DNA of 21,983 nt, from positions 1-21,983 of IMG/VR virus record IMGVR_UViG_3300044953_000076; one strand, given 5' to 3'. The DNA comes from a virus. Every line of letters begins with the position of its first letter. The first letter of the stretch is position 1. Both the position numbers and the translations under genes were made by a program. Positions 7,114-21,983 of the stretch are shown here, piece after piece. The notes beneath the pieces were generated by a model that ran no database searches, was not told the origin of the DNA, and was given only the letters and a program-made list of their open reading frames with translations.

Positions 7114-7121
7114 TATTTATA
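7114..7121 (-). promoter_or_regulatory. T4-type late promoter box overlapping the end of the cassette
   Basis: An exact TATAAATA on the minus strand overlaps the stop codon (7117-7119) of the last gene of the radical SAM cassette. It is 20 nt upstream of the ATG at 7094, with AAAGGA in between. The downstream virion block can therefore be transcribed independently of the cassette. Confidence 0.75.
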
Positions 7122-7512
7122 TAAAAAATTCAGCCTTATAATAACTTCTTATATCTGGTATTATACCTTTATTTTCATTAAAAGGTGTAATTTTTTTTAA
7201 TATTTCATCATAAGTATATGTATCTTCATTATAGATTTTAAAATAGGGATCATTACCATATAATAAATCTTTGTCATTTAATAATTCTATAAAATCTTCG
7301 CCGAAATCTTTTGACAGCCAATGTGCATAACATATGGCCACTACATAACTTTTAGAAGGATATATAAAGCCCATATCTTTATTAAAAAAATATTGTATTG
7401 CATTTTCAATTATATCTTTAGAAAATTGTATTTTTATTTTATTTAAATCGTCAGCGTAATCATTATTTAACTTATGATATAACGCTTGCCTGATTTTCCA
7501 TTCTTTTACCAT
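7117..7512 (-). CDS. Unrecognised 131-aa protein, last gene of the modification cassette
   Basis: A 131-residue protein with ATG at 7512. It overlaps the preceding radical SAM gene by 41 nt, and no clear ribosome-binding site precedes this ATG, so the start is uncertain. The sequence is predicted mostly helical at the N-terminus (residues 1-75, with 'FSKDIIENAIQYFFNKDMGF' and 'YVVAICYAHWLSKDFGEDFIELL'). The C-terminal half is acidic and Tyr-rich. There is one cysteine and no metal-binding motif. I do not recognise the family. Its position as the final, overlapping member of the radical SAM/oxygenase operon suggests it belongs to that system, for example as a substrate-binding or accessory protein, but nothing in the sequence proves it. 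AT-rich composition matches the enzyme genes. Confidence 0.6.
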   Translation of the reverse strand: MVKEWKIRQALYHKLNNDYADDLNKIKIQFSKDIIENAIQYFFNKDMGFIYPSKSYVVAICYAHWLSKDFGEDFIELLNDKDLLYGNDPYFKIYNEDTYTYDEILKKITPFNENKGIIPDIRSYYKAEFFI

Positions 7513-8416
7513 AGTAGTCTAGTAATCCTTTATATCCATTACAACTATTATTCAAATCTTTTACATAACGATAATGTTCTGTTAAACAATGGCCATAATA
7601 TTTACAATTTTTACAAATATCTGATATGTTTTTTATAGGTTCATTATCTGCCCATTTTAAATAATCTTTAAATGACTTTAATTCTAAAAAATATTCTTTA
7701 TCGTCTTTATCAAATTCCAACACACCAAAATTACCATTAGGTGTTATATAGACATGATTATTTGAAAATGCGTTATATTGTTTATTTAAACTTTTAATTA
7801 TTTTACCTTCATTTATAAAATCAAATTTTTTCTCTACTTTACTTTCAATCCATTTTTGCACAAATAATTCAAAGTCTTTATGTGTCACAGATTGTTTATT
7901 TGCTTGATTTATCGAGTAAGGTTTTATTTCTACACTTTCAATGCTTGAACATAAATTAAGTTTTTTAATCATCTCATCTACATTCATACTTATTACCTTT
8001 TCACTTGCTAATATTAACACTGCAATAGGCACCGTACTTTGAAACATATTATTATAAACTAAATCAGATTTTTCTCTGGCTTCAAAATCATAACTTACGC
8101 TTAAATAAAAATCATTTTTAAAAAATCCTTCATGTAGCATTGAATAATTTGTTATTATATTTATTTTATCTTTATAATATTTACGAATAATATCTTTCAG
8201 ACCATAAAAATAATCTTTTTTTAAAGCGCCTATTTCTCCACCATATAAATCAACCCATTCTATAATTCTTACTTTACTTATTTCTTTTAATTTTTTATCT
8301 AATATAGGTAAAGGTATTTTTTTTTGATCACTCAATTGTTGAGATGTTAAATAACAAAAGTTACATCTAAAATTACAAAAATAACTAGGATTTATAGAAA
8401 TAATTATTTTATTCAC
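7472..8416 (-). CDS. Radical SAM protein D, reduced SPASM/twitch-type (314 aa)
   Basis: The radical SAM motif C14-x3-C18-x2-C21 binds the catalytic [4Fe-4S] cluster, and YGGE (58-61) is the SAM-amino-group motif. The C-terminus has C268-x2-C271-x5-C277 and C292, four cysteines enough for one auxiliary cluster. The usual upstream SPASM cysteines are absent: the equivalent 'TPNGNFGVLEF' segment (225-235) has none. It is therefore a reduced SPASM or twitch-like enzyme. The start is a GTG at 8416 that overlaps the previous stop (GTGA). The family acts on peptides or small molecules by hydrogen abstraction from the substrate. The substrate here is unknown, but proximity suggests the Cys-His-Xaa-Ser tail of the 177-residue protein or another modified virion component. 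It overlaps its neighbours on both sides. Confidence 0.85.
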   Translation of the reverse strand: MNKIIISINPSYFCNFRCNFCYLTSQQLSDQKKIPLPILDKKLKEISKVRIIEWVDLYGGEIGALKKDYFYGLKDIIRKYYKDKINIITNYSMLHEGFFKNDFYLSVSYDFEAREKSDLVYNNMFQSTVPIAVLILASEKVISMNVDEMIKKLNLCSSIESVEIKPYSINQANKQSVTHKDFELFVQKWIESKVEKKFDFINEGKIIKSLNKQYNAFSNNHVYITPNGNFGVLEFDKDDKEYFLELKSFKDYLKWADNEPIKNISDICKNCKYYGHCLTEHYRYVKDLNNSCNGYKGLLDYYGKRMENQASVIS

Positions 8417-8934
8417 TTTGTTAATCTTTCATTTATGTAATAATTAAAGCTTGCAACACGTCTAGGTAATTTTAATTTAAGAGGTGTAACAATATGTTCA
8501 AATTTCATACTTTGATTCATTATAATAATATCATATTGTTGAGGATAATAATTAATTAACTCTTTTTTAGTTTCAGTTTCTCTAAAACAAATAGCGCCTC
8601 CTATATCTTCATCCATTGTATCAAAGTATGCCAAAATACAAAGATTAGGTCCTTCTACTAAATCATTATGCCACATCAATGTAGCATTATCTATACCATT
8701 TACTAATTCTATTTTATCGGCAAGTTTGTAATTTTTATCAATTTGTTTTACACATTTTTCACCTAAATATTTTTGTATATCTAATAATTGATTTTCAATT
8801 AATTTTTCTTTTTTACAAATTTGTAAACTCAAATTTTTATCTTCTATCCATTTGACGTTATCTAAATTTATAAATTTAATAACGCTTTTATCATTTTCTA
8901 TAATATAACCTTGTGTTAAAAAATTATCCAGCAT
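8413..8934 (-). CDS. 2OG-Fe(II) oxygenase-like protein 2 (173 aa)
   Basis: The protein carries the iron- and 2-oxoglutarate-binding set of the double-stranded beta-helix dioxygenases: H89-x-D91 (in WHND), a distal H147 (FEHIV) and R158/R159 (PRRVASF) for the 2OG carboxylate. The stretch 'LAYFDTMDEDIGGAICFRE' is the expected strand region with a GG turn before a Phe-rich strand. The family hydroxylates or oxidises side chains of peptides, proteins or small molecules using O2 and 2OG. The start overlaps the upstream radical SAM gene by 11 nt (ATGCTGGATAA), and its stop overlaps the next start. 2OG oxygenases are common in T4-like marine phages, but here two such genes alternate with radical SAM genes. 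The first 60 residues are helical and of unknown role. Confidence 0.8.
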   Translation of the reverse strand: MLDNFLTQGYIIENDKSVIKFINLDNVKWIEDKNLSLQICKKEKLIENQLLDIQKYLGEKCVKQIDKNYKLADKIELVNGIDNATLMWHNDLVEGPNLCILAYFDTMDEDIGGAICFRETETKKELINYYPQQYDIIIMNQSMKFEHIVTPLKLKLPRRVASFNYYINERLTK

Positions 8935-10024
8935 TTACACTTTCATCAATATAAGGCGTTAACTCAATATTATTTAGACCATTTGCTTTTAATACCTTTG
9001 GAGCAATACTTTTCATAATTTTACAATGTTCTTCTACAACATTATGTTTTTTAAAATCTTTAATAGTCTTTCTACAACCATTACATATATTAAACATTGG
9101 ACACTCAAAACAAGCTCTTTTCATACTATATAAATTCATATCGGTTTGTAATGGTTTAAAAAATTCACCATTCATTTCTCTATCAAAATCAATTGATTTA
9201 TCTTTATCATCACCAAAAGCTCCACAAGAATAATAATCTCCACTAGGATTTAATGCACGTATACCTTCATCACACTTTCTATTTTGAGGACAAAGAGTAT
9301 ATTTACCCCTTACTCTTTTCATCATTTGTTTAGTATTAAATTCCCAATGATAAAAATTTTTTTCCCATATTTCTACATACTTTTGATATATCTTACTTAA
9401 CAAATATGGTTTATCTTGTTCACCACTGGCCATAGCATAGTTTAATTTACACTCTACACCTACTTTACTTGTCTTTAGTAAGTCGTGTGTTGTGCCATAA
9501 GGCATTTTACCGTCAGACATTTTAAAAGCTAACTCTACGTTTTTTAGTGCTAGATGTTCATTTTCGGGAACAATTACAGCAATAAAATCAGGCCTATAAC
9601 CGCAATATTCTAACATAGTATCTGAACATTTCCAAAAATCTTCTTCTGTAAATTCAGAGTAATCACCCTTTAAACGGCCACCGCCATATTGAAAAGATGT
9701 GTTAACTCCTACTCTATCATTATTAAATAGATTTGCCCATTTTTTAGGTTTCTTATAAAAAGGCCATAGATTAGTTGTAAGTGATATTGACGTATTATAT
9801 TCGTGTTCATCTAACCAATCAATTATTTTCCAATAATAATCTGGTTCTACCATTAATGGGTCACCACCATTTACTATAATTGTTTTTGTATGAGGAAATC
9901 TTTTTAAAAAACGAAAAATATAATTATGATTTAACAAATCACTTTTGTGCATAGCAATTTTAGTGCTAGAACAAAATGTACATTTAAAATTACAGGCTTC
10001 AGTAGGTTTAATAATTAAGTCCAT
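8924..10024 (-). CDS. Radical SAM/SPASM protein C (366 aa)
   Basis: The classic motif is C11-x3-C15-x2-C18, with NGGDP at 52-56. The C-terminal third has a full SPASM-type set: C245, C251, C267, C305-x2-C308-x5-C314-x2-C317 and C334, enough for two auxiliary [4Fe-4S] clusters. SPASM proteins mostly modify ribosomally made peptides (anSME, PqqE and sactisynthase families, for example). Residues 106-122 (NTSFQYGGGRLKGDY) form an unusual Gly-rich loop after the barrel strand 'LTTNL'. The ATG at 10024 shares its A with the preceding stop (TAATG), so it is coupled to the upstream 2OG oxygenase, and it overlaps the next oxygenase gene by 11 nt. This radical SAM gene therefore lies between two oxygenases. 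The substrate is not identified. Confidence 0.9.
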   Translation of the reverse strand: MDLIIKPTEACNFKCTFCSSTKIAMHKSDLLNHNYIFRFLKRFPHTKTIIVNGGDPLMVEPDYYWKIIDWLDEHEYNTSISLTTNLWPFYKKPKKWANLFNNDRVGVNTSFQYGGGRLKGDYSEFTEEDFWKCSDTMLEYCGYRPDFIAVIVPENEHLALKNVELAFKMSDGKMPYGTTHDLLKTSKVGVECKLNYAMASGEQDKPYLLSKIYQKYVEIWEKNFYHWEFNTKQMMKRVRGKYTLCPQNRKCDEGIRALNPSGDYYSCGAFGDDKDKSIDFDREMNGEFFKPLQTDMNLYSMKRACFECPMFNICNGCRKTIKDFKKHNVVEEHCKIMKSIAPKVLKANGLNNIELTPYIDESVNAG

Positions 10025-10602
10025 TATACTATAATTGCTTTTGTGTTTGGTTGATCTTTAACTTTATAACCTAAAACTAAAGACGTTCTAGGACTTTCAC
10101 CAAAATATGGTTTTACTCTATGCACTAAAAAACCAGGAAATATAATCAGTCTGTTTGGTTTAGGTAAAATGTTTATGGCGTTATTAGGGTATTCTGCAAA
10201 AGTTAAGTTTTTATATATTGTTAATTCTCCGCCAATCCATTTTTCATTATTAAAATCACTACGTAAATAATAAATAGCTGTGATATAAGAACTTTCAACC
10301 ATATCGTGATGTGGTTCGTATAGATGATTTGTTACTTTTGATACATCATATTTTTTTAAATAACCTTTTTGAAAGTTAGACAATTCTAAATTTTCAAAAT
10401 CAATATTGTTTTGAATACAATAATTAACAACAGTTTTTTTTACATATAACTGAAATGTCTTTTGACTAGGCGTAAAATTAAATATATCTTGGTTTTTAAT
10501 TGTAGTGTCTATATTGCTTTCTTTTTTTAATTGATTGATTAAAATTTCATCAATCAAAAAATTATCTATTATATTAATAGTATCTGTAAATTTAATTTGC
10601 AT
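10024..10602 (-). CDS. 2OG-Fe(II) oxygenase, prolyl-hydroxylase-like (192 aa)
   Basis: The frame opens with a TTG at 10638, 47 nt into the upstream gene, but the ATG at 10602 gives a more natural 192-residue protein beginning MQIKFTDTINIIDNFL and an 11-nt overlap (ATGCAAATTAA). With that start the P4H-type iron motif is H98-x-D100 (in EPHHD), the distal His is H161 (LVHRV) and the 2OG-binding Arg is R172 (ESPRTSLVLGY). Between them is the diagnostic 'YITAIYYLRSDF...WIGGELTIY' followed by 'IIFPGFLVHRV'. These match prolyl-4-hydroxylase-like phage proteins. Such enzymes hydroxylate protein or peptide side chains. It lies between the GNAT-like gene and radical SAM C. The oxygenase call is confident; the substrate is unknown. 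Confidence 0.88.
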   Translation of the reverse strand: MQIKFTDTINIIDNFLIDEILINQLKKESNIDTTIKNQDIFNFTPSQKTFQLYVKKTVVNYCIQNNIDFENLELSNFQKGYLKKYDVSKVTNHLYEPHHDMVESSYITAIYYLRSDFNNEKWIGGELTIYKNLTFAEYPNNAINILPKPNRLIIFPGFLVHRVKPYFGESPRTSLVLGYKVKDQPNTKAIIV

Positions 10603-11164
10603 AACGTATATAATACTTATCTTGTTTTTTAAAACCAAATTGTTGCATTATTTCTCTATGATATGGCTCTTTTTGTATTCTCATTTGATTCATCACTAAA
10701 TGTAAATATTCTAAATAAGAACCAGTAGGTATAATTAATTTATAATTTTTAAATGTTTTTACAATATCAGAATACATTTTCCTAATAAATTTACGTATTT
10801 CGGTTTTTGGTCTTTGTTTTAAAACACCAGAATATTTTATACTTCCTATTATTATTTCGTTTTCATATATGTGTAACATAGCCACACCTTTTTCTAATTT
10901 CCATTCATTTGTACAAGTTACCCATTGTTCTTCATTTTTATTTTTTAAAGTTTGTTCATATATATCGGCATCTGTTTCTTTTGTTCCCCACCAAATTAAA
11001 AATAAAGCTTGTTTATCGCATATTCTAGGTACGAAAGGATGTTTTATAGGTAAATTATCTAATATAATATCTACGTTAGGTATATCTACTCTAATAAGCG
11101 ATGTAGTTTCTTTGTAGTCGTACATCTTCGATATATCTGTGCGTAAGTTTATAGACACACTCAT
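10592..11164 (-). CDS. Unrecognised 190-aa protein, possibly GNAT-like
   Basis: The start is the ATG at 11164, 74 nt inside the end of radical SAM B. It is chosen because a strong Shine-Dalgarno (GAGAGGAG) lies 4 nt upstream; the next Met at 11125 has no comparable site. The sequence is mixed alpha/beta: 'QALFLIWWGTKETDADIYEQTL', a strand pair 'VAMLHIYENEIIIGSIKY', a basic helix, and an ending 'EIMQQFGFKKQDKYYIRY'. The last phrase, and the 'I-I-I-G-x-I' strand, resemble the end and core of GNAT acetyltransferases ('x-x-x-F-G-F-x-x-x-x-Y-Y-x-R-Y'). The acetyl-CoA-binding loop R/Q-x-x-G-x-G/A is not clear, so this is only a suggestion. If correct, acetylation could be an additional tailoring step. 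It could also be an unrelated fold. Confidence 0.6.
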   Translation of the reverse strand: MSVSINLRTDISKMYDYKETTSLIRVDIPNVDIILDNLPIKHPFVPRICDKQALFLIWWGTKETDADIYEQTLKNKNEEQWVTCTNEWKLEKGVAMLHIYENEIIIGSIKYSGVLKQRPKTEIRKFIRKMYSDIVKTFKNYKLIIPTGSYLEYLHLVMNQMRIQKEPYHREIMQQFGFKKQDKYYIRYAN

Positions 11165-12143
11165 CTAACTCCTCTCTATATCTATAATCGTGATTCATAA
11201 AACAGCCTAAAGTACATCTATCTAAAAACTCACAAGAAACACAATTATATTTTTCTAAAAATTTGTTTTCAATAATACTATTATCCATACGTTTAATAGG
11301 AGACTTGTACATACTTAAAGATTTTTTATCTTGCACTAAATTACCACACATACATAATGTGCCATCAGCTAATACTAACTTACTTACTCTACAAGAAGAA
11401 TAATTTTTTTTATTAAAAATCCAATCTTTTACAGGATGTACATTTGGATAATTATCAACACAATGCTTAAAAAACTTTAATAATAATTCATCACTTGGCA
11501 TATTAAATTTAGCGTGTTCATCTGGCATATAGTAATCAAAATAAATGTATTTACCATTATTGTAAAGATAATCAAAATAATCATCACCGTTATTTAAATA
11601 ATGCTCTATATTAGGTTTAGTTAATAAACAAGAAAAACAAGTAACTCTATCTCCAAAATAATCTACATTACTTTTAAATATTTCAAATTGTGCTTTATTA
11701 AAACGGCCTCTTGGATCGTATGAAGTTGAAAGTCTTGTAGGTATATTATTATCTTTAGAATGCTTTAATAAATCTTCTATTTGTTCTATGCCATTTTTAT
11801 TTGTAACTAAATTAGATACCCAATTTATTGAATACAACTTATTATATTTTTTTGCTATTTGAGATATGCCTAAAGATAATTGTTTATAAGCTTCATTTAA
11901 TTCTTTTGTATAAATGCTTGGTGCAAATACTTCACCACCCATTATATTTAAAGTAATTTTATTTCTAAATTCTCTACTTATGAATTTTTCAATAGGCTCT
12001 AACTTATTTAAAACTGTGTCTATACCTATTTTATCTTGGTGATTTTGCCAACAAAAAGCACAACTTAGATTACAAAATTCAAATAAATGAATTGTATATT
12101 CTTGCTCAGGATCTCGTTTAGGCTCAATGATAAATTCTCTCAT
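11091..12143 (-). CDS. Radical SAM/SPASM protein B (350 aa)
   Basis: The radical SAM motif is C24-x3-C28-x2-C31 after an unusually long 23-residue lead, and MGGE is at 68-71. SPASM-type cysteines are C251, C264, C266, C301-x2-C304-x5-C310-x3-C314 and C329. The pattern 'C-V-S-C-x(5)-C-x-x-x-C-F' is the usual end of the SPASM domain. The barrel segments 'NWVSNLV' and 'STSYDPRGRF' align by eye with 'GITSNLV' and 'GTSWDPKIRF' of radical SAM A, so A and B are paralogues. B probably acts on a peptide or protein substrate encoded nearby. It starts 6 nt after an unknown 367-residue protein and overlaps the GNAT-like gene by 74 nt. AT-rich composition matches the cassette, not the virion genes. Confidence 0.9.
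   Translation of the reverse strand: MREFIIEPKRDPEQEYTIHLFEFCNLSCAFCWQNHQDKIGIDTVLNKLEPIEKFISREFRNKITLNIMGGEVFAPSIYTKELNEAYKQLSLGISQIAKKYNKLYSINWVSNLVTNKNGIEQIEDLLKHSKDNNIPTRLSTSYDPRGRFNKAQFEIFKSNVDYFGDRVTCFSCLLTKPNIEHYLNNGDDYFDYLYNNGKYIYFDYYMPDEHAKFNMPSDELLLKFFKHCVDNYPNVHPVKDWIFNKKNYSSCRVSKLVLADGTLCMCGNLVQDKKSLSMYKSPIKRMDNSIIENKFLEKYNCVSCEFLDRCTLGCFMNHDYRYREELDECVYKLTHRYIEDVRLQRNYIAY
11169..11176 (-). promoter_or_regulatory. Strong ribosome-binding site that sets the 190-aa gene start
   Basis: The minus strand reads GAGAGGAG, then TTAG, then the ATG at 11164. It lies within the coding sequence of radical SAM B. It is among the best Shine-Dalgarno sequences in the cassette, where most genes rely on overlapping stop/start codons, so this gene may be translated more strongly than its neighbours. 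Confidence 0.65.
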
Positions 12144-12149
12144 TAAGGC

Positions 12150-13253
12150 CTATATAAGTTGATATTTACTTAAAGCCTCAATATTGTTGTTTCTTTTTAA
12201 ATTAAAAATGTGTTGTATTAAAACATAATTAATATTTTGAAAATCAAATTTAGGCACTAAACAAGTATCAAAGGGATTTTCGACAACAAAGTTGAGCATT
12301 GTATTCATTTCATCGTTCGTAATATTATCTTTAACAGCTAATTCTAAATAATCAAAAGTGCTAAACATTGTTTTATTAATGGCCATTCCCTCCACATCAT
12401 TATAAATTTTTTTTATTAAATTTCTTAAACCTGTTATTTTTTCTTGCGATAAATTTTCTATTTTACAAATACCATAAACGCCTTTACCATAATCATCTTT
12501 TTGCTCCCATATAGTTTCATCAGCATAATATTGTAAAGAACTTACATTTTTAATGGGATTATTTGAATTTAAATCTAAATCATTTTCTGTAAAATTTAAA
12601 GTTAATTGAAAATTTTTATTTAATAAATTCATTAATATCATTTCTCTATTGTCTGTAAAAGCTTCTTTAAACCATCTTCTTAAAAATTTATGAACAGTTG
12701 TATTTAATTTATTAATATGATTAGAAGAACCACTAAAATAATTTGCCAATAAAAACTCGTAAGAAAGATTTAAATTTAAATTTTTTATTGAATTTCTTTG
12801 TTCATTAGATATTGTAATTTCATTAAATAAATTATTTAAATTACCTAATCCTTCCCATAATTGTTCCATATTTAAAACATGTATAGGCTTTAATTGCGTG
12901 TTGTTTATGATTCTTTCTTTTAATATGGTTAATTGTAAAATTTTATTAAATGTATTTAAATCTAAATTTACAAAAATAGTTTTTAACCAATTAATTAAAA
13001 ACTTATTAAAATTATCTTTGTCTGCATATATTATGAATTTTTTATTTAAAGTATCTACATAATTTTTAATTTGTATTATTAATTCAGAAAAATTATCAGG
13101 CAAAGTTTTATAATGGTTTAATAAAATACCTTTTTGTATTTTTTTCAAATATTCATCCATAATATTGCCATAACGGCCTATTACGACTCTATCTATATCC
13201 GTTTGAATAAAATCGTCTAAACTTAAATATACTTTATCGAATAAATGTATCAT
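12150..13253 (-). CDS. Unrecognised 367-aa largely helical protein of the cassette
   Basis: A 367-residue Asn/Leu/Lys-rich protein. The first 30 residues are strand-like ('MIHLFDKVYLSLDDFIQTD' followed by 'DRVVIGRYGN'), and the rest is mostly helical with repeated 'N-x-L-N/I-K' segments. The C-terminus (about 255-330) has 'YGKGVYGICKIENLSQEKITGLRNLIKKIY' and 'FSTFDYLELAVKDNITNDEMNTML'. There are only two cysteines, no metal-binding motif and no membrane span. The ATG at 13253 shares its A with the stop of the previous gene (TAATG). I do not recognise the family. Its place between the candidate substrate and radical SAM B suggests a recognition, scaffold or chaperone role, but that is inference. 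Composition is very AT-rich (9 G+C in the 60 bases at 12601-12660). Confidence 0.75.
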   Translation of the reverse strand: MIHLFDKVYLSLDDFIQTDIDRVVIGRYGNIMDEYLKKIQKGILLNHYKTLPDNFSELIIQIKNYVDTLNKKFIIYADKDNFNKFLINWLKTIFVNLDLNTFNKILQLTILKERIINNTQLKPIHVLNMEQLWEGLGNLNNLFNEITISNEQRNSIKNLNLNLSYEFLLANYFSGSSNHINKLNTTVHKFLRRWFKEAFTDNREMILMNLLNKNFQLTLNFTENDLDLNSNNPIKNVSSLQYYADETIWEQKDDYGKGVYGICKIENLSQEKITGLRNLIKKIYNDVEGMAINKTMFSTFDYLELAVKDNITNDEMNTMLNFVVENPFDTCLVPKFDFQNINYVLIQHIFNLKRNNNIEALSKYQLI

Positions 13254-13933
13254 TAAATTTTTAAACCTTTTAATGTAGATTCTCTAGCTTGTATATATTC
13301 TTTACCTTTACCATTTGCAATTGACCAAGTTAAAAGAAACAATGGATTTTTATCATTTGCCCAATATTCAAACATATTTTTACCTCTAAACATGTAATCA
13401 TTAAAATAATGAGTATAAAACTTTAATTTATCATTATTTATTTTTTTATAATAACCGAAAAACCTAGTATGTTTTAAAAGACTTATAAAGTTAACACCTT
13501 CTAAATCTTGTGTATCATCTTTAGTGTATGATTGTGCGTAATTTCTAAAATCGTCAGAATTTAACATATACATATTATATAAAGATAAACTTTCTAATTT
13601 GTTCTGCCATTTTTCTAATATTTCAAAATTTTCTGAAATAAATTTATTAAAATTTTCATTTTTAGCAAGCCCTTTCATAACGAAAAGAATGTCTATTACT
13701 ACATTTTCTAAGTAAGATATATTTACAAGAGATACTGAGTGAAGATAATCTTTTACTAAATCTAAATCAATATTTTTCAAATCAGCGGGTATATCTAAAT
13801 TACTTAAATACGTAATTAATTTTTTTCCTTTTAAATCACTTATTGAATAATCTATTAAATAACTTACATCTTTTTCTGTAAAATTCTTTTTTAAATCTTC
13901 AATAGATATGGGTGCTTTTGTTTCAATAATCAT
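13253..13933 (-). CDS. Unrecognised 226-aa helical protein next to the candidate substrate
   Basis: A 226-residue mostly helical protein with no cysteine. It begins MIIETKAPISIEDLKKNFTE, followed by 'VSYLIDYSISDLKGKKLITYLSNLDIPAD', then long helices. The C-terminus is aromatic and basic ('FFGYYKK', 'FYTHYFNDYMFRGKNMFEYW'). The ATG at 13933 shares its A with the stop codon of the 177-residue Cys-His-Xaa-Ser protein (TAATG), so both are likely made together. It lacks a signal peptide, transmembrane helix or recognised enzyme motif. Because it is translated directly after the candidate substrate, a chaperone, leader-binding or particle-attachment role is plausible. I do not recognise a family, and no winged-helix RRE signature could be confirmed by eye. 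Confidence 0.72.
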   Translation of the reverse strand: MIIETKAPISIEDLKKNFTEKDVSYLIDYSISDLKGKKLITYLSNLDIPADLKNIDLDLVKDYLHSVSLVNISYLENVVIDILFVMKGLAKNENFNKFISENFEILEKWQNKLESLSLYNMYMLNSDDFRNYAQSYTKDDTQDLEGVNFISLLKHTRFFGYYKKINNDKLKFYTHYFNDYMFRGKNMFEYWANDKNPLFLLTWSIANGKGKEYIQARESTLKGLKI

Positions 13934-14466
13934 TATCTTCTACTCCTACTGCCGTGGCAAGAACTGTGACAACTTGAATGGCAAACTTCTATTGTTTCAG
14001 TTACCGTTGTTGTTCTTATATTATTATAAGCGGTTGCTATATTTGAAAAATATGTTTCCAATTTAGTGTCATCTATTACAGACCCGGCCGTTATATCTGT
14101 CGCTGTTATGGCTCCTAAAGCGGCTCTATCGCCTGTATCTAAATGTGCCACTTGTGTATCATCAAAAACTGTGCCTGTTCCTGTAATATTTTTTATAGCT
14201 CTTTGTTGACGAATATTTGTATATAATGCAGCTTCAGTTTCTAAAACATTTTTTATTGTTGTCGCTGTAATAATTGTGCCTGATATATCTGCACCTGTAA
14301 TATTTAAACTATCGCCAGCTGTTGTGCCTCCGTAACTTGCGTCAGGCATTTCTGCAAAAGGTTTACTATCTGTTCCCCACACTATACCAGTATTTGCCAC
14401 ATCAGTAACTAAATCTTCAAACTTATCAACAATACCTTGTTTAGATATTGGGTTGGATATTACCAT
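13933..14466 (-). CDS. Virion-style protein with C-terminal (Cys-His-Xaa-Ser)3 tail; candidate modification substrate
   Basis: A 177-residue protein. Residues 1-160 are fibre/virion-like: Thr/Ala/Ile-rich, no cysteine, with 'FEDLVTDVANTGIVW', 'SLNITGADISGTIITATTI' and 'IDDTKLETYFSNIATAYNNIR'. Residues 162-177 are entirely different: CHSSCHSSCHGSRSRR, three Cys-His-Xaa-Ser units (C162, C166, C170; H163, H167, H171) then a basic end. All the cysteines of the protein are there. It is encoded between radical SAM A, whose 3' end overlaps its start by 26 nt, and an unknown gene that starts on its stop codon. I infer that the body is a leader or particle anchor and the tail is the core modified by the neighbouring radical SAM enzymes and oxygenases. 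The repeat recalls the His-Xaa-Ser (Hxs) precursor proteins. An alternative is an unmodified metal-binding tail. Confidence 0.85.
   Translation of the reverse strand: MVISNPISKQGIVDKFEDLVTDVANTGIVWGTDSKPFAEMPDASYGGTTAGDSLNITGADISGTIITATTIKNVLETEAALYTNIRQQRAIKNITGTGTVFDDTQVAHLDTGDRAALGAITATDITAGSVIDDTKLETYFSNIATAYNNIRTTTVTETIEVCHSSCHSSCHGSRSRR
13948..13983 (-). repeat. Three tandem Cys-His-Xaa-Ser codon units
   Basis: Residues 162-173 of the 177-residue protein are three 12-nt units encoding CHSS, CHSS and CHGS. The codons are not copies: Cys is TGC/TGT/TGC, His CAT/CAC/CAC, the third position TCA/AGT/GGC and the last Ser AGT/TCT/AGT. The protein repeat is kept while the DNA has diverged, including use of both the TCN and AGY serine families. 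Confidence 0.85.
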
Positions 14467-15487
14467 ATTTTATACCTAATTTTAACTCTTTCATTAAACT
14501 TTTTGGTGCGCCACAAATATCACTTTGCCAAGCAAGTTGGTGACAATCACCTCCACAAAATTCAAAAACTTCACAAGAGAAACATATTGAGTTTCGAGCA
14601 CGTTCACAAGCGATGTTTTCTATTCTAATAGGACTATTTATAACAGATTTTATATCGTCTTTTATATGACCAAATTGAAATTCAGGTGCAGAATTAGGGC
14701 ATCCTGATATTGTGCCATCAGCATTTAATGTAAATATTTTTTGTTCACAATCTCTACAAAAAGTACCACCTTTTAAGAATCCTGTTTCAAACTTATTGTA
14801 TATAACCTCTAATGTTTCGTTATCAAACCAACTTCTACAATCATATTCTTTTGATTGGTGGTGCATTTTTAAAAACCATTTATCTTGTTCAATATTATCA
14901 GGAAATATTTCAGGATGTAATTTTGCATTTCCATTACCTGTTAGCCTTTCAAACGAAACCTCCTGCACACCTAAATTTTTTATCCATTGTAATATTTTAA
15001 TTGGCTCCATAGAAATGGTATCTTTTGTAACGCTGATAAACAATTTTATAGTAACGCCTTTAGATAATAAATCTCTTACATTTTTTTCCCATAAATTATA
15101 TTGTTTATCGTTTTCAAATCTTATTTTAGGATCCCAACTTGTGCCCATACGATTTTTTAATGGGCCTGAAATAAAATCATAATGTTCTTTTTTTAATTTA
15201 AAAACTAAATTAGATGTAATGCCAAAAGTACTATTTTTCCATAAATCTTTACACTCATTATAAAATTGATACATATGTGATACTGGCGCTAAAAAAGGTT
15301 CTCCTCCGTGAAATTCAAAATGTATTGTATCTTTTTCATTTTCATAATTTTGTCTAAATCTTTTTACAAAATCTATTGTTTGTATAGGATTAAAATAAAT
15401 TTTAGCGCCGTTTATACCGTTTGTAAAACAATGTTTACAGTTTAATTGACAAGTTTCAGTTGTTTTTATATAAAACATCCAATTCAT
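14441..15487 (-). CDS. Radical SAM/SPASM protein A (348 aa)
   Basis: The radical SAM motif is C13-x3-C17-x2-C20, with HGGEP at 60-64, the form typical of SPASM peptide maturases and anaerobic sulfatase-maturating enzymes. The C-terminus has C244, C247, C263, C294, C302-x2-C305-x5-C311-x3-C315 and C325, a full two-auxiliary-cluster SPASM set. The ending 'CEVFEFCGGDC' and 'CGAPKSL' closely follows the anSME/SPASM pattern. Its last 26 nt overlap the start of the 177-residue Cys-His-Xaa-Ser protein, making it the enzyme most tightly linked to that candidate substrate. It begins 1 nt after the cupin/JmjC-like gene. A by-eye resemblance to HxsB-type maturases is possible but unproven. A peptide-modifying radical SAM enzyme is the confident call; the chemistry is not predictable. 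Confidence 0.92.
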   Translation of the reverse strand: MNWMFYIKTTETCQLNCKHCFTNGINGAKIYFNPIQTIDFVKRFRQNYENEKDTIHFEFHGGEPFLAPVSHMYQFYNECKDLWKNSTFGITSNLVFKLKKEHYDFISGPLKNRMGTSWDPKIRFENDKQYNLWEKNVRDLLSKGVTIKLFISVTKDTISMEPIKILQWIKNLGVQEVSFERLTGNGNAKLHPEIFPDNIEQDKWFLKMHHQSKEYDCRSWFDNETLEVIYNKFETGFLKGGTFCRDCEQKIFTLNADGTISGCPNSAPEFQFGHIKDDIKSVINSPIRIENIACERARNSICFSCEVFEFCGGDCHQLAWQSDICGAPKSLMKELKLGIKYGNIQPNI

Positions 15488-15488
15488 T

Positions 15489-15938
15489 TTAATATCCTAT
15501 ACTTAAAGCCCAAGTAAATGGTGAACTTTCAACTCTATGTTTTGCACCTTTAGGTATAAAAATTGCTTGTTCTTCTTTAACTATTATTGGACAATTATCC
15601 GTATAAATTTTTTTGTTGCCTTTTATAACACATAAAAGAACGTTTAAATCATCTGTGTGTTCTGGAAAAGAAAATCCACCAAATTGATTATAAAATAAAT
15701 GCACGTTTTTAATTTTAAAATTTAAATCATATTGTTTTAATAATGATAGATGATAATTATTATCTTCTAAACCTTCTACTTTTATGTGTGGTATATTTTT
15801 ATAATTTTTTACCCAATTGCTAAAAGTTACTTCACTTTTAACTTTATAGTCTTTTCCTTTTTTATCTATATAAATTATTTGATTATTTTCGTATCTTGTA
15901 TAAGATATTAATTCATCATTTAATGCTGCAATTAACAT
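15489..15938 (-). CDS. Cupin/JmjC-like Fe(II) protein (149 aa), first gene of the cassette
   Basis: The C-terminal half is a small cupin. 'FGGFSFPEHTDD' gives H94-x-D96, then 'LLCVIKGNKKIYTD' (the G-x-K strand) and 'EEQAIFIPKGAKHRVESS' with the distal H134. This H-x-D...H set with IPKGxxH matches the metal site of JmjC/cupin_4-type hydroxylases and related cupins, so iron binding is likely. A separate 2OG-binding Lys or Arg is not certain; K110 is a candidate. Such proteins hydroxylate peptide or protein residues. The gene is the first of the cassette, 24 nt after the fibre gene, and its ATG follows an 18-bp palindrome with no clear Shine-Dalgarno. The next gene, radical SAM A, starts 1 nt after its stop. 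Confidence 0.78.
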   Translation of the reverse strand: MLIAALNDELISYTRYENNQIIYIDKKGKDYKVKSEVTFSNWVKNYKNIPHIKVEGLEDNNYHLSLLKQYDLNFKIKNVHLFYNQFGGFSFPEHTDDLNVLLCVIKGNKKIYTDNCPIIVKEEQAIFIPKGAKHRVESSPFTWALSIGY

Positions 15939-15962: not shown

Positions 15963-17351
15963 TTATAATATAACCGCTTCTATCAGACCTTTTTGATTAT
16001 CTTCAAGAGCTATAGCAAAAACTTTTTTAAATTCATCACTTATTTTTGCAGCAAAACCACCATTACCTGCAACTAACTCATCACCTTTTTTAATTTCACC
16101 TACTACTTTTATTAAAACACGACCTTTTAAAGCTATCGATTGTCCTTCTGCTTTAGCATTCATTAAGAAAGCAGGTTTATCGGATATAACTCCTAGTGCT
16201 CTATGTCCTATAAAACATTCTGTTACCTCTTGTGAACCTCCAATCATAACAACAGTGCCTACATCATAAACTTTATCTGTTTTAAAAATTTCAGCTAAGT
16301 CAGCATAATTAGCCTGACTAGCAGTTGTAGATAAAACGTTTGTATTAGGATTATAAGTTAAATCAGTATCAGTTTTTAAAGATTGACTACCTGTTGCACC
16401 TGCTGAGAAAGTTATAAAATTTGCGGCAGAAGTAGTATTATCTGCTGTCAATGTTATTGTTGATGCTGTGCCTCCTGAACCAGTAATAGTTGTAGCATTT
16501 AAAGTATTTACGGTTAAAGTATCTGCACTTAAATTTAATTTTGCAGCTCTAATTGTTGCGTCAGCAATATCATCATTTACAATTGTTGCATTAGCAATCA
16601 TAGTACTTGTAACTGTTCCAGTATCACCTGACGTAATAACTGTGCCTGTAATATTAGGTATTGTAATTGTTCTATCAGCCGTTGGGTCTGTGACTGTTAG
16701 TGTTGTTTCAAAAGCATCATCAGTAGCGCCTTCAAAAACTATACCACCTGAAGTTAAATTTAAACTTGTTCCTTGTAGTGTGCTAGAAAATGTACCTGTT
16801 GTACCAGCAACTGCTCCTGAAAATGTACCTGTTGTACCAGATACTGCACCTGAAAATGTGCCTGTTGTACCAGATACAGCACCTGAAGAATTTAATGAAG
16901 TTACTGTAGCTGCTCCAGATTGAAATGTACCTGTAGTAATTAAATTTTCATCACTAAAACTTATACTACCTGTTGAACTTGTTATTAATCCTGAAGATAT
17001 GGATATCGTGCTTACGTTTAATGCTGTTGTGATATTAACAGTAGGTGTTAAACTTATCGTTAAAGTGTCAGTAGCACTTACCACTGCATTAATTTGATTT
17101 GACGTTCCAAAAACATTTAAAGTTTGTCCAGCACCTATAGCTTGAATTGATGAACTTGAATCTCTGATTATCCAACCAGCAGCAGAAAAAGCAACACCTG
17201 CAATTTCTACAACAGCACCGCAAATAGATGTAGCTGATAAACCTGCACCAGCTAATGTAGATGGGTCGCCAAAATCAGTTTGAGTTAAAGTATTTAACTT
17301 AACTCGCATTTGTTCTAGTGTATCAGTGGTATTAATTACTGTAAATGCCAT
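15963..17351 (-). CDS. Tail-fibre protein with internal 33-nt repeats and conserved C-terminal domain (462 aa)
   Basis: A 462-residue fibre protein. The N-terminal region has 'TDTLEQMRVKLNTLTQTDFGDP', a coiled-coil-like start common in marine phage structural proteins. The middle is Thr/Ser/Gly-rich, with three tandem 11-residue GAV(S/A)GTTGTFS units at about 156-188 and, at about 205-240, the fibre module FEG-x(4)-AFETTLTV-x-x-PT-x-DRTIT-x-PN-x-x-GTV shared with the 128-residue protein. The C-terminal about 120 residues form a separate globular domain: 'YADLAEIF', 'YDVGTVVMIGG', 'ALGVISDKPAFLMN', 'ALKGRVLIKVVGEIKKGDELV'. From memory this domain recurs at the ends of T4-like cyanophage and pelagiphage structural proteins. 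It is the last gene before the radical SAM cassette, 24 nt away. Confidence 0.85.
   Translation of the reverse strand: MAFTVINTTDTLEQMRVKLNTLTQTDFGDPSTLAGAGLSATSICGAVVEIAGVAFSAAGWIIRDSSSSIQAIGAGQTLNVFGTSNQINAVVSATDTLTISLTPTVNITTALNVSTISISSGLITSSTGSISFSDENLITTGTFQSGAATVTSLNSSGAVSGTTGTFSGAVSGTTGTFSGAVAGTTGTFSSTLQGTSLNLTSGGIVFEGATDDAFETTLTVTDPTADRTITIPNITGTVITSGDTGTVTSTMIANATIVNDDIADATIRAAKLNLSADTLTVNTLNATTITGSGGTASTITLTADNTTSAANFITFSAGATGSQSLKTDTDLTYNPNTNVLSTTASQANYADLAEIFKTDKVYDVGTVVMIGGSQEVTECFIGHRALGVISDKPAFLMNAKAEGQSIALKGRVLIKVVGEIKKGDELVAGNGGFAAKISDEFKKVFAIALEDNQKGLIEAVIL
16786..16884 (-). repeat. Three 33-nt tandem repeats inside the fibre gene
   Basis: Units 16786-16818, 16819-16851 and 16852-16884 differ at only a few bases and encode GAVSGTTGTFS-type blocks. 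They keep frame, so they lengthen a fibre shaft by 11 residues per unit. Copy number is likely to vary between related phages. Confidence 0.85.
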
Positions 17352-17574: not shown

Positions 17575-20500
17575 TTAAGCCGCCAAAGCTATTCCTCTTA
17601 AATCTCTAACGATAGGAGGATAAGATGAAATATCTCCTTTTAAAACTATTTTAATTTGAAATGCAGTAAATTCATTTAAACTTGATTTTGAATATTTGTA
17701 CTCTTTAAAAGTACTATCGTTTTCAGCAGGTATTACTGTAATATCTTCGTTACCATCACTGTTAAAAGGTATCCATGATAAGTCATTTATATTTCTTACC
17801 TCTGTAGCGCTTGTAATTCTAAAAAAAACTTTTACTGATGAACTTGATCTAACGTTTTGTGTTAATCTAACGTCCAAAGCAGTTGAAGCATTTTCTAACA
17901 CTATTGGTCTTGTGCAATATACGGCCGCTGATGAAGTACCTGTAGCAGCAGTATCATCAACAAAATTAGGTGTATTACCTGATGTAGGATTGTTTAATCT
18001 ATTTTGTACAGCTACCATACTCATACGTTTTACATCTAATACAGGTGAAAGTTTTGTACTTGTTGTAGTTAATGTAATATTTAAAAATAAAGATTTAGAA
18101 CTTGACATTTCATTTGTTTCATTAATTACACTTGCCACCATTTGAGGTGATGTAAATATAATATTATTACCTGTATTTACTCTAATTGCATTTGATGATG
18201 ATATTAAATTAAATTCAGTTTCATTACCGTTATGAATTGACCTACCTGAGGTTGTTCTTAAATCGTAATCAATATTAGTGCCAGGCACGGTCATAGTTGA
18301 TATGTTTAAACAACTTAAATCAAATAATCTATTTTCAGTAGCAGTTACAGTTGTTCCACCTATGTCACCAGTAGATGTAGCTGTGCCAGCGGTTGTAATG
18401 TCATAACTGTCAAGTGTTACATTTGAAATACTTGTATATGTTCCATTAATTTGTGCTGAAGTGATACCATTATATGTACCAGCGGCTACACCAGCAATCG
18501 TAACGTTATTACTTGTGCCATGCATTCCGTGATTTTTATGGAATACTCTTATTACTCCGGAAGCATTTGTTGTTCTTAATGAATTGTTCGGTAATGTTCT
18601 TACAGGCAAACTATCATTAACAAGTGTAACAGTACCTGTTACATTTTCAAATTCAGCACGATTAATTTTAAATTTTATATCTTCATTTTGTTCTGCTGTC
18701 CAAGTTGAACCATTTTGAGATTTAAATAAAACTCCTGCATACGGTTGAACCGATATTGTTCTATCAGATCCTATTTGAGTATCTCCTATTCTTGCAACAA
18801 AAACATTATACTTATCACAGTTAGACAAAACACAGAAAGAATATTCAGTTTTTTCTTGTAAATAAACAGGTGAAGGAAAAGTAAATTTTGTAGCCGTCGT
18901 AGCGTCGTCTGAAATATTTACAGAACTTGGATTTAATACTACTTCACCAAAAGGTAATATTGTACGTGAAGGATAACCATTTACCACCTCTCTTATTTGC
19001 ATTGTTACAGGAATATTTTCATCTTTTGATTGGAAAAATAAATCAACAGAAGTAACAAAAACTCCACCGGTGTCATCAATTAAAAAAGTTTGTGCAATAG
19101 GATCTATCCATCCTATAACTTCTGTTGTTGTTCGTGTAGATTCTCTTACAATGTTTCTAGTATCAGTTACAGTTTGTCTTACTAATTGTGGTTCTCTTGT
19201 TGATACGATTGTATTTTGAACTGTCTCTAATGAACCTTTTGCAATATAGTCAGCTTCAGCAGAGGTCTCAACATCAGTCATAGAATTTGTCGATGAACTT
19301 GTAAGTCTGAATATTCTTTGACCTGTTCTCCATCTAGGGTTATTATCATTTGTAGGATCAGGTATACTAAAAGTACCTGTTAAAGTACCATTTGAATTTG
19401 AAATTAAACTGCCTCCTATAGAACCTCCTGTTGGTGTTACGTATGATGTAATATCAATATTATCAAAGAAAGGATAAACTCTTGTATTAGGTTTTAATCT
19501 AGTAGCTGTAAAACTAATTGTACGAGCTCTTATAAAAGGTATGAAAGCTATATTTAATACTCTGTCACCTAAAGATGTTCTAACAACTTGAGGAACTAAA
19601 GCTGTTCTTATACCTGATCTTGTTTGAGAAACTTGTTGCTCAGTTGTAAGAATTGTATCTCTCACAGTACCAATTCTTCCTTGATTTACCGTTCTATCGT
19701 TTTGACTCGTAACTCTTTCAACAGGAGTGCCTTGCCAAAAATCTTGCCATTCATTCCATACTGTATCAATTTCTACACTATCTAAATTAGGATTTCCTAA
19801 ATCCGCTAACATAGTATCAAAAGCTCCTTGTTGATTTATTAATAAATCTGGAATTCTATTTGTTTCTTTCCATTCATCGCCTGGTGGATCAAGTGTAATT
19901 GAGCCTGCCCAAGTAAAAACATTAAAAGGATTTACGTTAATATACTTACTTGCAAAAGATTGATCTATTAATGTGGTTTCCGTATAAGGTAAAGTAATTA
20001 AATCTCCTGTTTTAGCGTAATTAGCTGCTGTTCTATCGGCAGCAACAATTGCTGTACCGTCATCATCTGCTTCAATTAATTGCACAGATTCAGAATTAAA
20101 CAAAGGTCTCATGTAACCACCAGCCATATCTATAGAAACTTTATAATCTAAATTTCCTACATCACCTATTCCATGACCTGTAAAATTATCTACAATAAAA
20201 CCATTTTTAAATCTGTCAAAACCCTCTGCGTCTTGTATTTGTAAAGATTGAGCTTGCGTTTCTAATAATGATAATTGTGTATAATATTCTACATTTTCCA
20301 ATCTTTTTTCTAAACGACCAATATCTCTCATTGTATAACGTCTATTGTCTTGTTTTTGCACCTCTAAATCTTTTTCATTTAAAGTATAAGCATTTAAAAA
20401 TAAAGTATAAAGGTGCATAGCATTTTCTAAACTTTTTGGTATTTGTGGACTTAAAGAACTAGAGCCTTTTAAAACTTTAAAATTTCCATCTTTATCTAAA

Positions 20501-21983
20501 AATATTTTATCTATTCTTGGTAAATAATATTCTAAATCAGTGGTTATATCAGAATTAAATTTAACAATATCAATTAAAGAAGCACCTGTGGCTATTGCCG
20601 AAGATGTGGTTTGATAAAATCTATTTGAAGTAGAACTAATAATCGTAGATGAATCAGCAACTCTAGGTCTAAAATCTAAACAATCTCTTAATTTGTATTT
20701 TTTACCAGTTGTATCAGAAGTGTATTCAGATATATCTTCATAGTCATTTGCACCTGTGTATGAGTCAACATCAAAATAATCTCCTGTACCATGTGAATAA
20801 AAATTAAAACTAATTAATAATCTTCCCGTAGGTACGATAGCTCCAGTTTTTAATTTTATTCTACCTATATCGTAAAAATTATCACGTTGGCCTGTATCTA
20901 AAGTAAATCGATTTGTAATATTTGTATCGCTGGTTGTTGCAACTGTAGAAAAATTTGCTGACATAAAAATAGAATTAATTTCTATAACGTCAGCTTTTCC
21001 TAAACCAATAGTACCTGATTCAATTTCCGTTTGAGATGATACATTTAAAGTAGCGTTACTGTTTAATGTTTTTTGTTTAGAACCTGCTGTGCCACGACTT
21101 ATTGTTGCTAATATTTTTATTTTAGCATTTGAATAATTTGTACCAAAATCTAAAGTTAAAGTTTTTCCAGTAGGAGAACCACCTCTTGTAAATATTGCAT
21201 TACCTAAATGGTTATTTCCTGATAAACTTAAAACATCACCATTAGCTCCTGTAACCGCTGCGTTTATAGCCATAATTGAAACATAAAAATCGTTTTCAGA
21301 TAAACTTGCAAAAGTTTCATTTGTTCCTGCAGTAATTGTTGCTATACCTGAAGATAGTGTAGCAACAAAATTTCTTCTTACACTTAAACTTGTATCTGTA
21401 TTATTATTATTTGCTGTTGTTTTTAAAGTTTTTATTACTCTATATGGCAATTCAAATATTGAAATATTTTTATTAGAACCTTGTAATTTACCACGATTTC
21501 TAAATGCAATTGTTTTAGTAGATACATCAGAAGCACCCACTGCTGTCAATAATTGTAAACTTGTATTTGATGAAATAGATTCTATTATTCTTGTAACAGA
21601 AGAGCCAACGTCAGTTGTAAACGTAATTGAGTCACCTATACGTAATTCTGTATTAAACAAAGTACCAAATCCTGTAACTGTTGTTCCACTATTTGCCACT
21701 GAAATAGAACCAAATACTGGATATCTTTCTCCATAAGTTGAATCTATTGCAACATCAGCAGTATATGTTGGTGATCCAGCCATGCCAAGTTGTTTTACTT
21801 GCGTAAAGTCAAATGATTGTACACCATTAAATCCATATCTATCAGACTGTATAGCCGCTGTAACAGCTGAAGTTGCACCTGTAATTGTTTCGCCTGCTAC
21901 AAACACACCTGTTACATTATTTAAAACCGTAACTCCGTGTGTAACAGTAGGTGCTGCAGAAAAAGCTGTTACGTTAATTGCTG
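17575..21983 (-). CDS. Very large virion structural protein, DUF4815-like (5' end outside window)
   Basis: The frame is open to the right edge, with 26 more codons upstream of the GTG at 21906, so the N-terminus is outside the window and at least 1,469 residues are visible. Segments, numbered from that GTG: a beta-rich N-terminal part; a helical section at about 500-545 ('RRYTMRDIGRLEKRLENVEYYTQLSLLE'); an 'F-x-N-G-F-I-V-D-N-F' then 'D-x-x-x-D-Y-K-V-S-I-D' and 'RPLFNSESV' stretch; 'SFTATRLKPNTRVYPFFDNIDIT' at about 790-825; and 'DPIAQTFLIDDTGGVFVTSVDLFFQSKD' at about 937-965. These phrases match the large DUF4815-type tail proteins of T4-like marine and other phages, from memory. It is probably a major baseplate or tail-adhesion component. 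The C-terminus ends 'DISSYPPIVRDLRGIAL'. Confidence 0.85.
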   Translation of the reverse strand, partial: AINVTAFSAAPTVTHGVTVLNNVTGVFVAGETITGATSAVTAAIQSDRYGFNGVQSFDFTQVKQLGMAGSPTYTADVAIDSTYGERYPVFGSISVANSGTTVTGFGTLFNTELRIGDSITFTTDVGSSVTRIIESISSNTSLQLLTAVGASDVSTKTIAFRNRGKLQGSNKNISIFELPYRVIKTLKTTANNNNTDTSLSVRRNFVATLSSGIATITAGTNETFASLSENDFYVSIMAINAAVTGANGDVLSLSGNNHLGNAIFTRGGSPTGKTLTLDFGTNYSNAKIKILATISRGTAGSKQKTLNSNATLNVSSQTEIESGTIGLGKADVIEINSIFMSANFSTVATTSDTNITNRFTLDTGQRDNFYDIGRIKLKTGAIVPTGRLLISFNFYSHGTGDYFDVDSYTGANDYEDISEYTSDTTGKKYKLRDCLDFRPRVADSSTIISSTSNRFYQTTSSAIATGASLIDIVKFNSDITTDLEYYLPRIDKIFLDKDGNFKVLKGSSSLSPQIPKSLENAMHLYTLFLNAYTLNEKDLEVQKQDNRRYTMRDIGRLEKRLENVEYYTQLSLLETQAQSLQIQDAEGFDRFKNGFIVDNFTGHGIGDVGNLDYKVSIDMAGGYMRPLFNSESVQLIEADDDGTAIVAADRTAANYAKTGDLITLPYTETTLIDQSFASKYINVNPFNVFTWAGSITLDPPGDEWKETNRIPDLLINQQGAFDTMLADLGNPNLDSVEIDTVWNEWQDFWQGTPVERVTSQNDRTVNQGRIGTVRDTILTTEQQVSQTRSGIRTALVPQVVRTSLGDRVLNIAFIPFIRARTISFTATRLKPNTRVYPFFDNIDITSYVTPTGGSIGGSLISNSNGTLTGTFSIPDPTNDNNPRWRTGQRIFRLTSSSTNSMTDVETSAEADYIAKGSLETVQNTIVSTREPQLVRQTVTDTRNIVRESTRTTTEVIGWIDPIAQTFLIDDTGGVFVTSVDLFFQSKDENIPVTMQIREVVNGYPSRTILPFGEVVLNPSSVNISDDATTATKFTFPSPVYLQEKTEYSFCVLSNCDKYNVFVARIGDTQIGSDRTISVQPYAGVLFKSQNGSTWTAEQNEDIKFKINRAEFENVTGTVTLVNDSLPVRTLPNNSLRTTNASGVIRVFHKNHGMHGTSNNVTIAGVAAGTYNGITSAQINGTYTSISNVTLDSYDITTAGTATSTGDIGGTTVTATENRLFDLSCLNISTMTVPGTNIDYDLRTTSGRSIHNGNETEFNLISSSNAIRVNTGNNIIFTSPQMVASVINETNEMSSSKSLFLNITLTTTSTKLSPVLDVKRMSMVAVQNRLNNPTSGNTPNFVDDTAATGTSSAAVYCTRPIVLENASTALDVRLTQNVRSSSSVKVFFRITSATEVRNINDLSWIPFNSDGNEDITVIPAENDSTFKEYKYSKSSLNEFTAFQIKIVLKGDISSYPPIVRDLRGIALAA

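Follow-up and report, generated by a model that had tools for sequence, protein, structure and literature searches.

Is the Cys-His-rich end of a small phage protein the substrate of the radical SAM enzymes encoded beside it? The question is raised by a 21,983-base stretch of a virus record, here called the window and analysed over its whole length, which its size and open ends show to be a fragment. An open reading frame running from ATG to TAA (Table 1) encodes a protein of 177 residues whose last 16, residues 162-177, are CHSSCHSSCHGSRSRR. A preliminary description of this DNA had proposed a (Cys-His-Xaa-Ser)3 tail at the C-terminus, holding all the cysteines and three of the four histidines of the protein, with four radical SAM genes as neighbours, and this is borne out by the sequence: no cysteine lies outside the tail, the sole other histidine is found within VAHLDTG, and all four radical SAM genes are present on the same strand. 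The first 26 bases of the frame coincide with the 3′ end of a radical SAM/SPASM gene, here named rS1, and the stop codon of the frame overlaps the start of the next gene (TAATG), so that the genes look translationally coupled. We think it likely that the tail protein is a virion protein, located at a fibre tip, and that its C-terminal tail is a predicted modification target of dedicated radical SAM enzymes.

Table 1. Coordinates of the tail gene, its enzyme cassette and neighbouring genes in the window.
Feature	Position	Strand	Description
Large protein	17575..21906		DUF4815 E 1.2e-30, phrog_358; probably structural
Tail-fibre-like gene upstream of cassette	15963..17351	-	phrog_22593, phrog_19602
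Cupin-fold protein	15489..15938	-	first gene of cassette; 149 aa; Pfam Cupin_2 E 1.2e-5
rS1 radical SAM/SPASM	14441..15487	-	348 aa; directly upstream of tail gene; Pfam, PHROG and NCBIfam radical SAM matches
Tail protein (proposed substrate)	13933..14466	-	177 aa; variable body and C-terminal (CHxS)3-RSRR tail
16-residue tail CHSSCHSSCHGSRSRR	13936..13983	-	coding part without stop; invariant in alignments A2, A4 and A5
g20767 (phrog_20767)	13253..13933	-	226 aa; conserved, directly downstream of tail gene
g12150, conserved partner	12150..13253	-	367 aa
rS2 radical SAM	11091..12143	-	Pfam E 3.2e-5; phrog_1802
Conserved accessory protein	10592..11164	-	no Pfam match
2OG-Fe(II) oxygenase	10024..10638	-	PF13640 E 2.4e-9
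rS3 radical SAM	8924..10024	-	Pfam E 3.5e-7
2OG-Fe(II) oxygenase-like	8413..8934	-	PF13640 E 0.0014, under curated cut-off; phrog_19592
rS4 radical SAM	7472..8416	-	Pfam E 3.5e-6
Small conserved accessory protein	7117..7512	-	phrog_20737; kept in Phosso and other loci
Long tail-fibre protein beside cassette	2..2989		six CBM_5_12 (carbohydrate-binding module) stretches

A DNA pattern for the tail retrieved 46 stretches from viral contigs, about 40 of which encode proteins that end in the tail, with bodies of about 100-300 residues. The pattern matches L013, L016, L018, L023, L028, L044 and L048 were rejected as chance reading frames or as frames without a C-terminal tail. The 206 distinct proteins collected carry 89 distinct versions of the 16-mer, and pairs drawn at random within the main class have on average 32% identity over the body vs 81% over the tail, counts that hold partly by construction because the regular expression used for collecting prescribes the RxRR end and leaves the CH positions little freedom. 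For the commonest 16-mer, CHSSCHSSCHGSRGRR, 21 different coding sequences were found, and it is therefore the peptide that is conserved, not the DNA. Alignment of homologs, named in the preliminary description as the check on its reading, shows that the tail is nearly fixed and that hardly any residue of the body is invariant; in alignment A2, M1 and P36 are the sole invariant positions outside the tail. When ten whole records (37-504 kb) were scanned, the DNA pattern of the CH repeat was confined to tail genes, in most of the records to a single one, and the reversed control pattern was never found. Judged from these sequences, a chance origin of the tail is excluded. More divergent tails with radical SAM genes nearby were also seen, at L045:8571-9128 (CHGDCRRSKR end), L010:560-1141 (five CH units, ending SSGGW) and L001:4453-5037 (short end CHGSI).

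The linkage between tail and enzyme was examined from starting points other than the tail. When loci were collected with rS1 only, 287 viral relatives were obtained and the 80 best were taken; a tail gene was found downstream of rS1 in all 75 loci that could be read, the contigs of the other five ending too early, and the tail was always of the form (CHx[S/N/A])3-RxRR. A second rS1 search, directed at divergent copies and with contigs partly shared with the first, gave 74 of 80 loci ending in the tail; four of the remainder are cut by the contig end, and two (L162 and L163) have an extended CH repeat and are the only loci found through rS1 without the RxRR end. A search with the body after removal of the tail again yielded a CH repeat at the protein end (60 of 60 loci). 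The locus sets overlap between searches, and these counts are not independent events. The searches covered viral contigs, public phage records and a single scan of genome contigs, a scope in which near relatives of the window may be missing. rS1 and the tail are inseparable in all readable loci; loci that kept the enzymes and lost the tail, which the preliminary description had named as the observation that would speak against its reading, were looked for and no such separation appeared.

The tail is not confined to one type of protein. Among the matches listed for a relaxed pattern are tandem pairs of proteins of 124-140 residues that carry the same tail. In hhalign comparisons, the bodies of the tandem class and of the first class have no detectable relation once the tails are removed (probability 3.6%), whereas the C-terminal 56 columns including the tail align at 99.1%. 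Genes for CxxxCxGCF-type radical SAM proteins follow the tandem pairs wherever enough downstream DNA is readable, and a tail-fibre-like gene precedes them where examined. A 151-kb virus, G001, has both tail classes and two copies of rS1. Since unrelated bodies carry the same tail and have their own radical SAM genes, the tail is a portable unit. Tandem pairs with LRTFDKT bodies, which form a subsystem of their own, were noted at L278, L300, L306, L307, L311, L315, L324, L327, L331, L334, L336, L340, L341, L343 and L344.

Against phage records, enzymes were used as queries instead of the tail protein, whose body drifts too far: tblastn of the whole window tail protein gave no match. rS1, rS3 and g20767 each match the same seven of 50,697 phage records by tblastn, namely Sinorhizobium phage Phosso, Agrobacterium phage Atu_ph07 (two records), Burkholderia phages FLC6, FLC8 and SURPRISE13, and Pseudomonas phage pPa_SNUABM_DT01. 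In all five phage regions read, a tail protein annotated as hypothetical protein directly follows rS1, with the endings CHTSCHASCHSSRSRR, CHSSCHASCHNSRSRR, CHSSCHTSCHGSRGRR (twice) and CHTSCHTSCHSARGRR. Jumbo phages in culture, with hosts in Agrobacterium, Sinorhizobium, Burkholderia and Pseudomonas, possess the cupin, rS1, the tail protein, unknown partners and further radical SAM genes, and rS1 and the tail are carried by phages as diverse as Atu_ph07, Chimalliviridae and marine viruses. Cassettes also lie on bacterial MAG contigs of 382 kb (L050/L381) and 228 kb (L051/L382) that have bacterial-looking genes elsewhere and may reflect a prophage, a tailocin or a binning error; a Gp23 search of these contigs, meant to separate prophage from chromosome, gave no match, but the controls were equally without match.

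The cassette has a usual gene order: cupin, rS1, tail protein, g20767, g12150, rS2, accessory protein, 2OG oxygenase, rS3, 2OG oxygenase and rS4. The cupin is upstream in 179 of 185 loci, and g20767 comes after the tail gene in 166 of 169, both in a redundant set in which some contigs are counted twice. Across 16 divergent homologs, rS1 retains an invariant CX3CX2C motif and the SPASM cysteines CX9-15GX4C ... CX2CX5CX3C ... C; these cysteine motifs and the co-occurrence with a candidate substrate are as expected of a radical SAM/SPASM peptide maturase. The protein g20767, a candidate adaptor or maturation factor, has a confident AlphaFold model without a PDB match, its fold search returning only an uninformative alpha/beta segment of about 55 residues with Z of 4.1 or less. 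For g12150, no significant family was found in Pfam, PHROG or NCBIfam. A GNAT-like label for the accessory protein after rS2 was backed by no match and was dropped, and a viperin-type defence reading of the radical SAM proteins was rejected because the matches are weak (27-30 bits) and lie mostly over the radical SAM core. B12-binding radical SAM proteins occur in or beside some cassettes (L024:5671-7341, L037:820-2598 and L382:13568-15280), which suggests methylation as an extra step.

Several indirect lines suggest that the tail protein resides in the virion. At L162:5553-6500 a member of the tail protein family is naturally fused, behind four CH units, to Peptidase_S74 (E 1.5e-11), a domain that acts as a chaperone for trimeric fibres and spikes and cleaves itself off; the window tail protein lacks this domain. 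The same tail-fibre families are encoded upstream of the window cassette, of the Atu_ph07 cassette and of the tandem pair in L344. Atu_ph07 virion proteins identified by ESI-MS/MS cluster in CDS 170-215 (PMC6102473). The Atu_ph07 gene numbering agrees with that of the paper (portal gp198, prohead core gp204), so that, by the cluster limits, the virion cluster begins with gp170, the tail protein. With the S74 fusion, the upstream fibre gene and the Atu_ph07 cluster taken together, the tail protein is probably a particle protein, as the preliminary description had it. The protein matches phrog_35144 (E 7.5e-7, covering residues 100-177), and its AlphaFold model (pLDDT 88.9) is a compact alpha/beta domain. 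A fold search among 367 PDB chains gave no match with Z of 2 or more, and Foldseek gave none at E below 0.001; in BFVD there are six matches at E below 0.001, the Atu_ph07 homolog among them. The predicted model has no recognisable fibre fold, which counts against a position at the fibre tip.

Over 618 units, the repeat reads Cys-His-x-z, where x is free and often Gly or Thr. At z, Ser, Asn or Ala is the rule; Gln, Arg or Lys is rare there, and Gly and Thr are never seen. The spacing typical of triceptides, an aromatic residue and, two positions on, an acceptor with a free Cβ, is present in the H-x-z units. The maturases HaaB, ScaB and YhhB join His C2 to the Cβ of Ala or Arg, at i+2 for HaaB and ScaB (PMC11002830). 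By analogy, the rule at z would fit one His(i)-Cβ(i+2) cyclophane per unit, although small polar residues could be favoured at this position for other reasons.

We propose that the tail protein is a small virion protein, most likely at or near the tail fibre tip, whose last 16 residues would act as a portable modification tag. It would be translated from an overlapping operon with rS1, and rS1 would modify all three Cys-His-x-Ser units inside the infected cell, ahead of assembly, with the Arg-x-Arg-Arg end probably serving as a recognition handle. g20767 and g12150 may assist rS1, and the further radical SAM proteins and the Fe(II)/2OG or cupin oxygenases may act afterwards. The likeliest chemistry would be one crosslink per unit, for example from the His ring to the Cβ two residues further on, and the tail cysteines may form additional crosslinks such as thioethers or provide metal ligands. 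The product would be a compact, rigid and possibly metal-binding fibre tip for host contact. From the co-occurrence of tail and cassette we infer that the enzymes act on the tail, and the order of the steps, the product and its purpose are put forward as parts of the same model. Most of the fully visible cassettes encode several radical SAM proteins, which is more than a 16-residue tail obviously needs and counts against this proposal.

The same Cys-His units could instead remain unmodified and bind Fe, Zn or Cu at the fibre tip, with the radical SAM genes serving something else nearby. The CH-rich end and the fibre context would suit such a tip, for which HxH iron sites in T4 gp37 and in marine phage fibres provide a precedent (PMC11705849). 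We nevertheless regard it as unlikely: neither the near exclusive Ser, Asn or Ala at the fourth position nor the conserved RxRR is needed for metal binding, and rS1 and tail never separate in readable loci across very different phages. The cassette might also make a small cofactor or a modified porphyrin-like ligand that is then bound by, or attached to, the Cys/His tail. The CHxxCH sequence is reminiscent of the CxxxCH haem site, several radical SAM/SPASM relatives make cofactors, and the enzyme classes in the cassettes are varied, with B12-type radical SAM proteins in some of them. This account is very unlikely in our view, since the tail gene overlaps the enzyme gene as a substrate gene would, neither a transferase nor a lyase was recognised, and the best NCBIfam matches of rS1 are peptide maturases (PapB, TIGR04083), though far below the cut-offs.

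The preliminary description had read the layout as leader plus core, and a stronger form of that reading makes the tail a RiPP core that is cut off and released against host cells or rivals, the body being only its leader. A core-like C-terminal repeat beside radical SAM genes is what such a system would present. A classical RiPP, however, has a conserved leader, cleavage and export, whereas the body here does not amount to a conserved leader, and the tail occurs on two body classes that are unrelated to each other. No RRE/PqqD-like element was matched in Pfam or NCBIfam among the cassette proteins of the window, and no protease or transporter was recognised among its cassette genes with Pfam, PHROG and NCBIfam. 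The body is moreover long and varied, with a confident predicted fold, and the S74 fusion and the Atu_ph07 virion cluster point to a particle protein. The leader-plus-core layout in its classical sense is thus not upheld, and release of the tail as a free peptide appears highly improbable. The modified virion tail is the reading that we retain.

To our knowledge, no virion protein is known to be matured by radical SAM chemistry. A nearly fixed tag now ties widespread phages, including isolates with public genomes and cultured hosts, to enzymes that are usually called auxiliary metabolic; it gives the cassette enzymes a candidate substrate and predicts a new kind of receptor-contacting tip. The self-contained tag and its enzyme set are on offer for protein chemistry. 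A wider claim, to which we give somewhat less than even credence, is that a transferable 16-residue tag, placed on unrelated carriers in jumbo and marine tailed phages and recognised by radical SAM enzymes of its own, could produce an unprecedented crosslinked and possibly metal-loaded virion tip for host recognition or penetration. The exact tail sequence was not found in papers, and no description of the tail or of the system was found in the open-access literature, preprints aside.

Among known systems, the triceptides (HaaB, ScaB, YhhB, XyeB, FxsB and GrrM) likewise place a radical SAM/SPASM enzyme beside a protein in which an aromatic-x-acceptor motif is repeated at the C-terminus. In contrast to them, the substrate here is of phage virion type without a conserved leader, each unit has an invariant Cys, the tail ends in RxRR, and several radical SAM proteins and oxygenases are present. 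The enzymes are far below the NCBIfam cut-offs, the best score with the triceptide maturase models tested (XyeB, FxsB, GrrM, YhhB and AmcB) being 29 bits vs cut-offs of 310-450. Likeness to the Hxs systems, suggested earlier on account of the His-x-Ser motif and seen also in the paired radical SAM proteins, does not, by the models tested, extend to membership. The radical SAM proteins lie far below the HxsB/HxsC cut-offs (TIGR03978, 24 bits with a cut-off of 370; TIGR03977, 31 bits with a cut-off of 268), none of the HxsA models matched the tail protein, and the Cys is invariant in this tail, unlike in Hxs.

A Cys every four residues recalls the ranthipeptides (PapB) and the CXXX-repeat peptides. 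The best NCBIfam match of rS1 is to the PapB model (NF047865; E 7e-13, 48.4 bits vs a cut-off of 340), and the CXXX-repeat maturase model matches with 29 bits vs a cut-off of 350; unlike in ranthipeptides, the acceptor Asp or Glu is absent at the expected spacing and the substrate is a virion protein. Campylobacter phages CP220 and CPt10 are T4-like and resemble the present carriers in their wealth of radical SAM genes, 11 radical SAM proteins in the case of CP220 (PMC2853527), but CP220, which served as the negative control, has neither the CH tail nor an rS1 ortholog. The nearest structural analog is the iron-binding tip of T4 gp37, which also presents a His-rich distal fibre end with possible metal ligands; the tail differs from it in the absence of a fold match, in having Cys-His pairs rather than HxH, and in being encoded with a dedicated radical SAM cassette.
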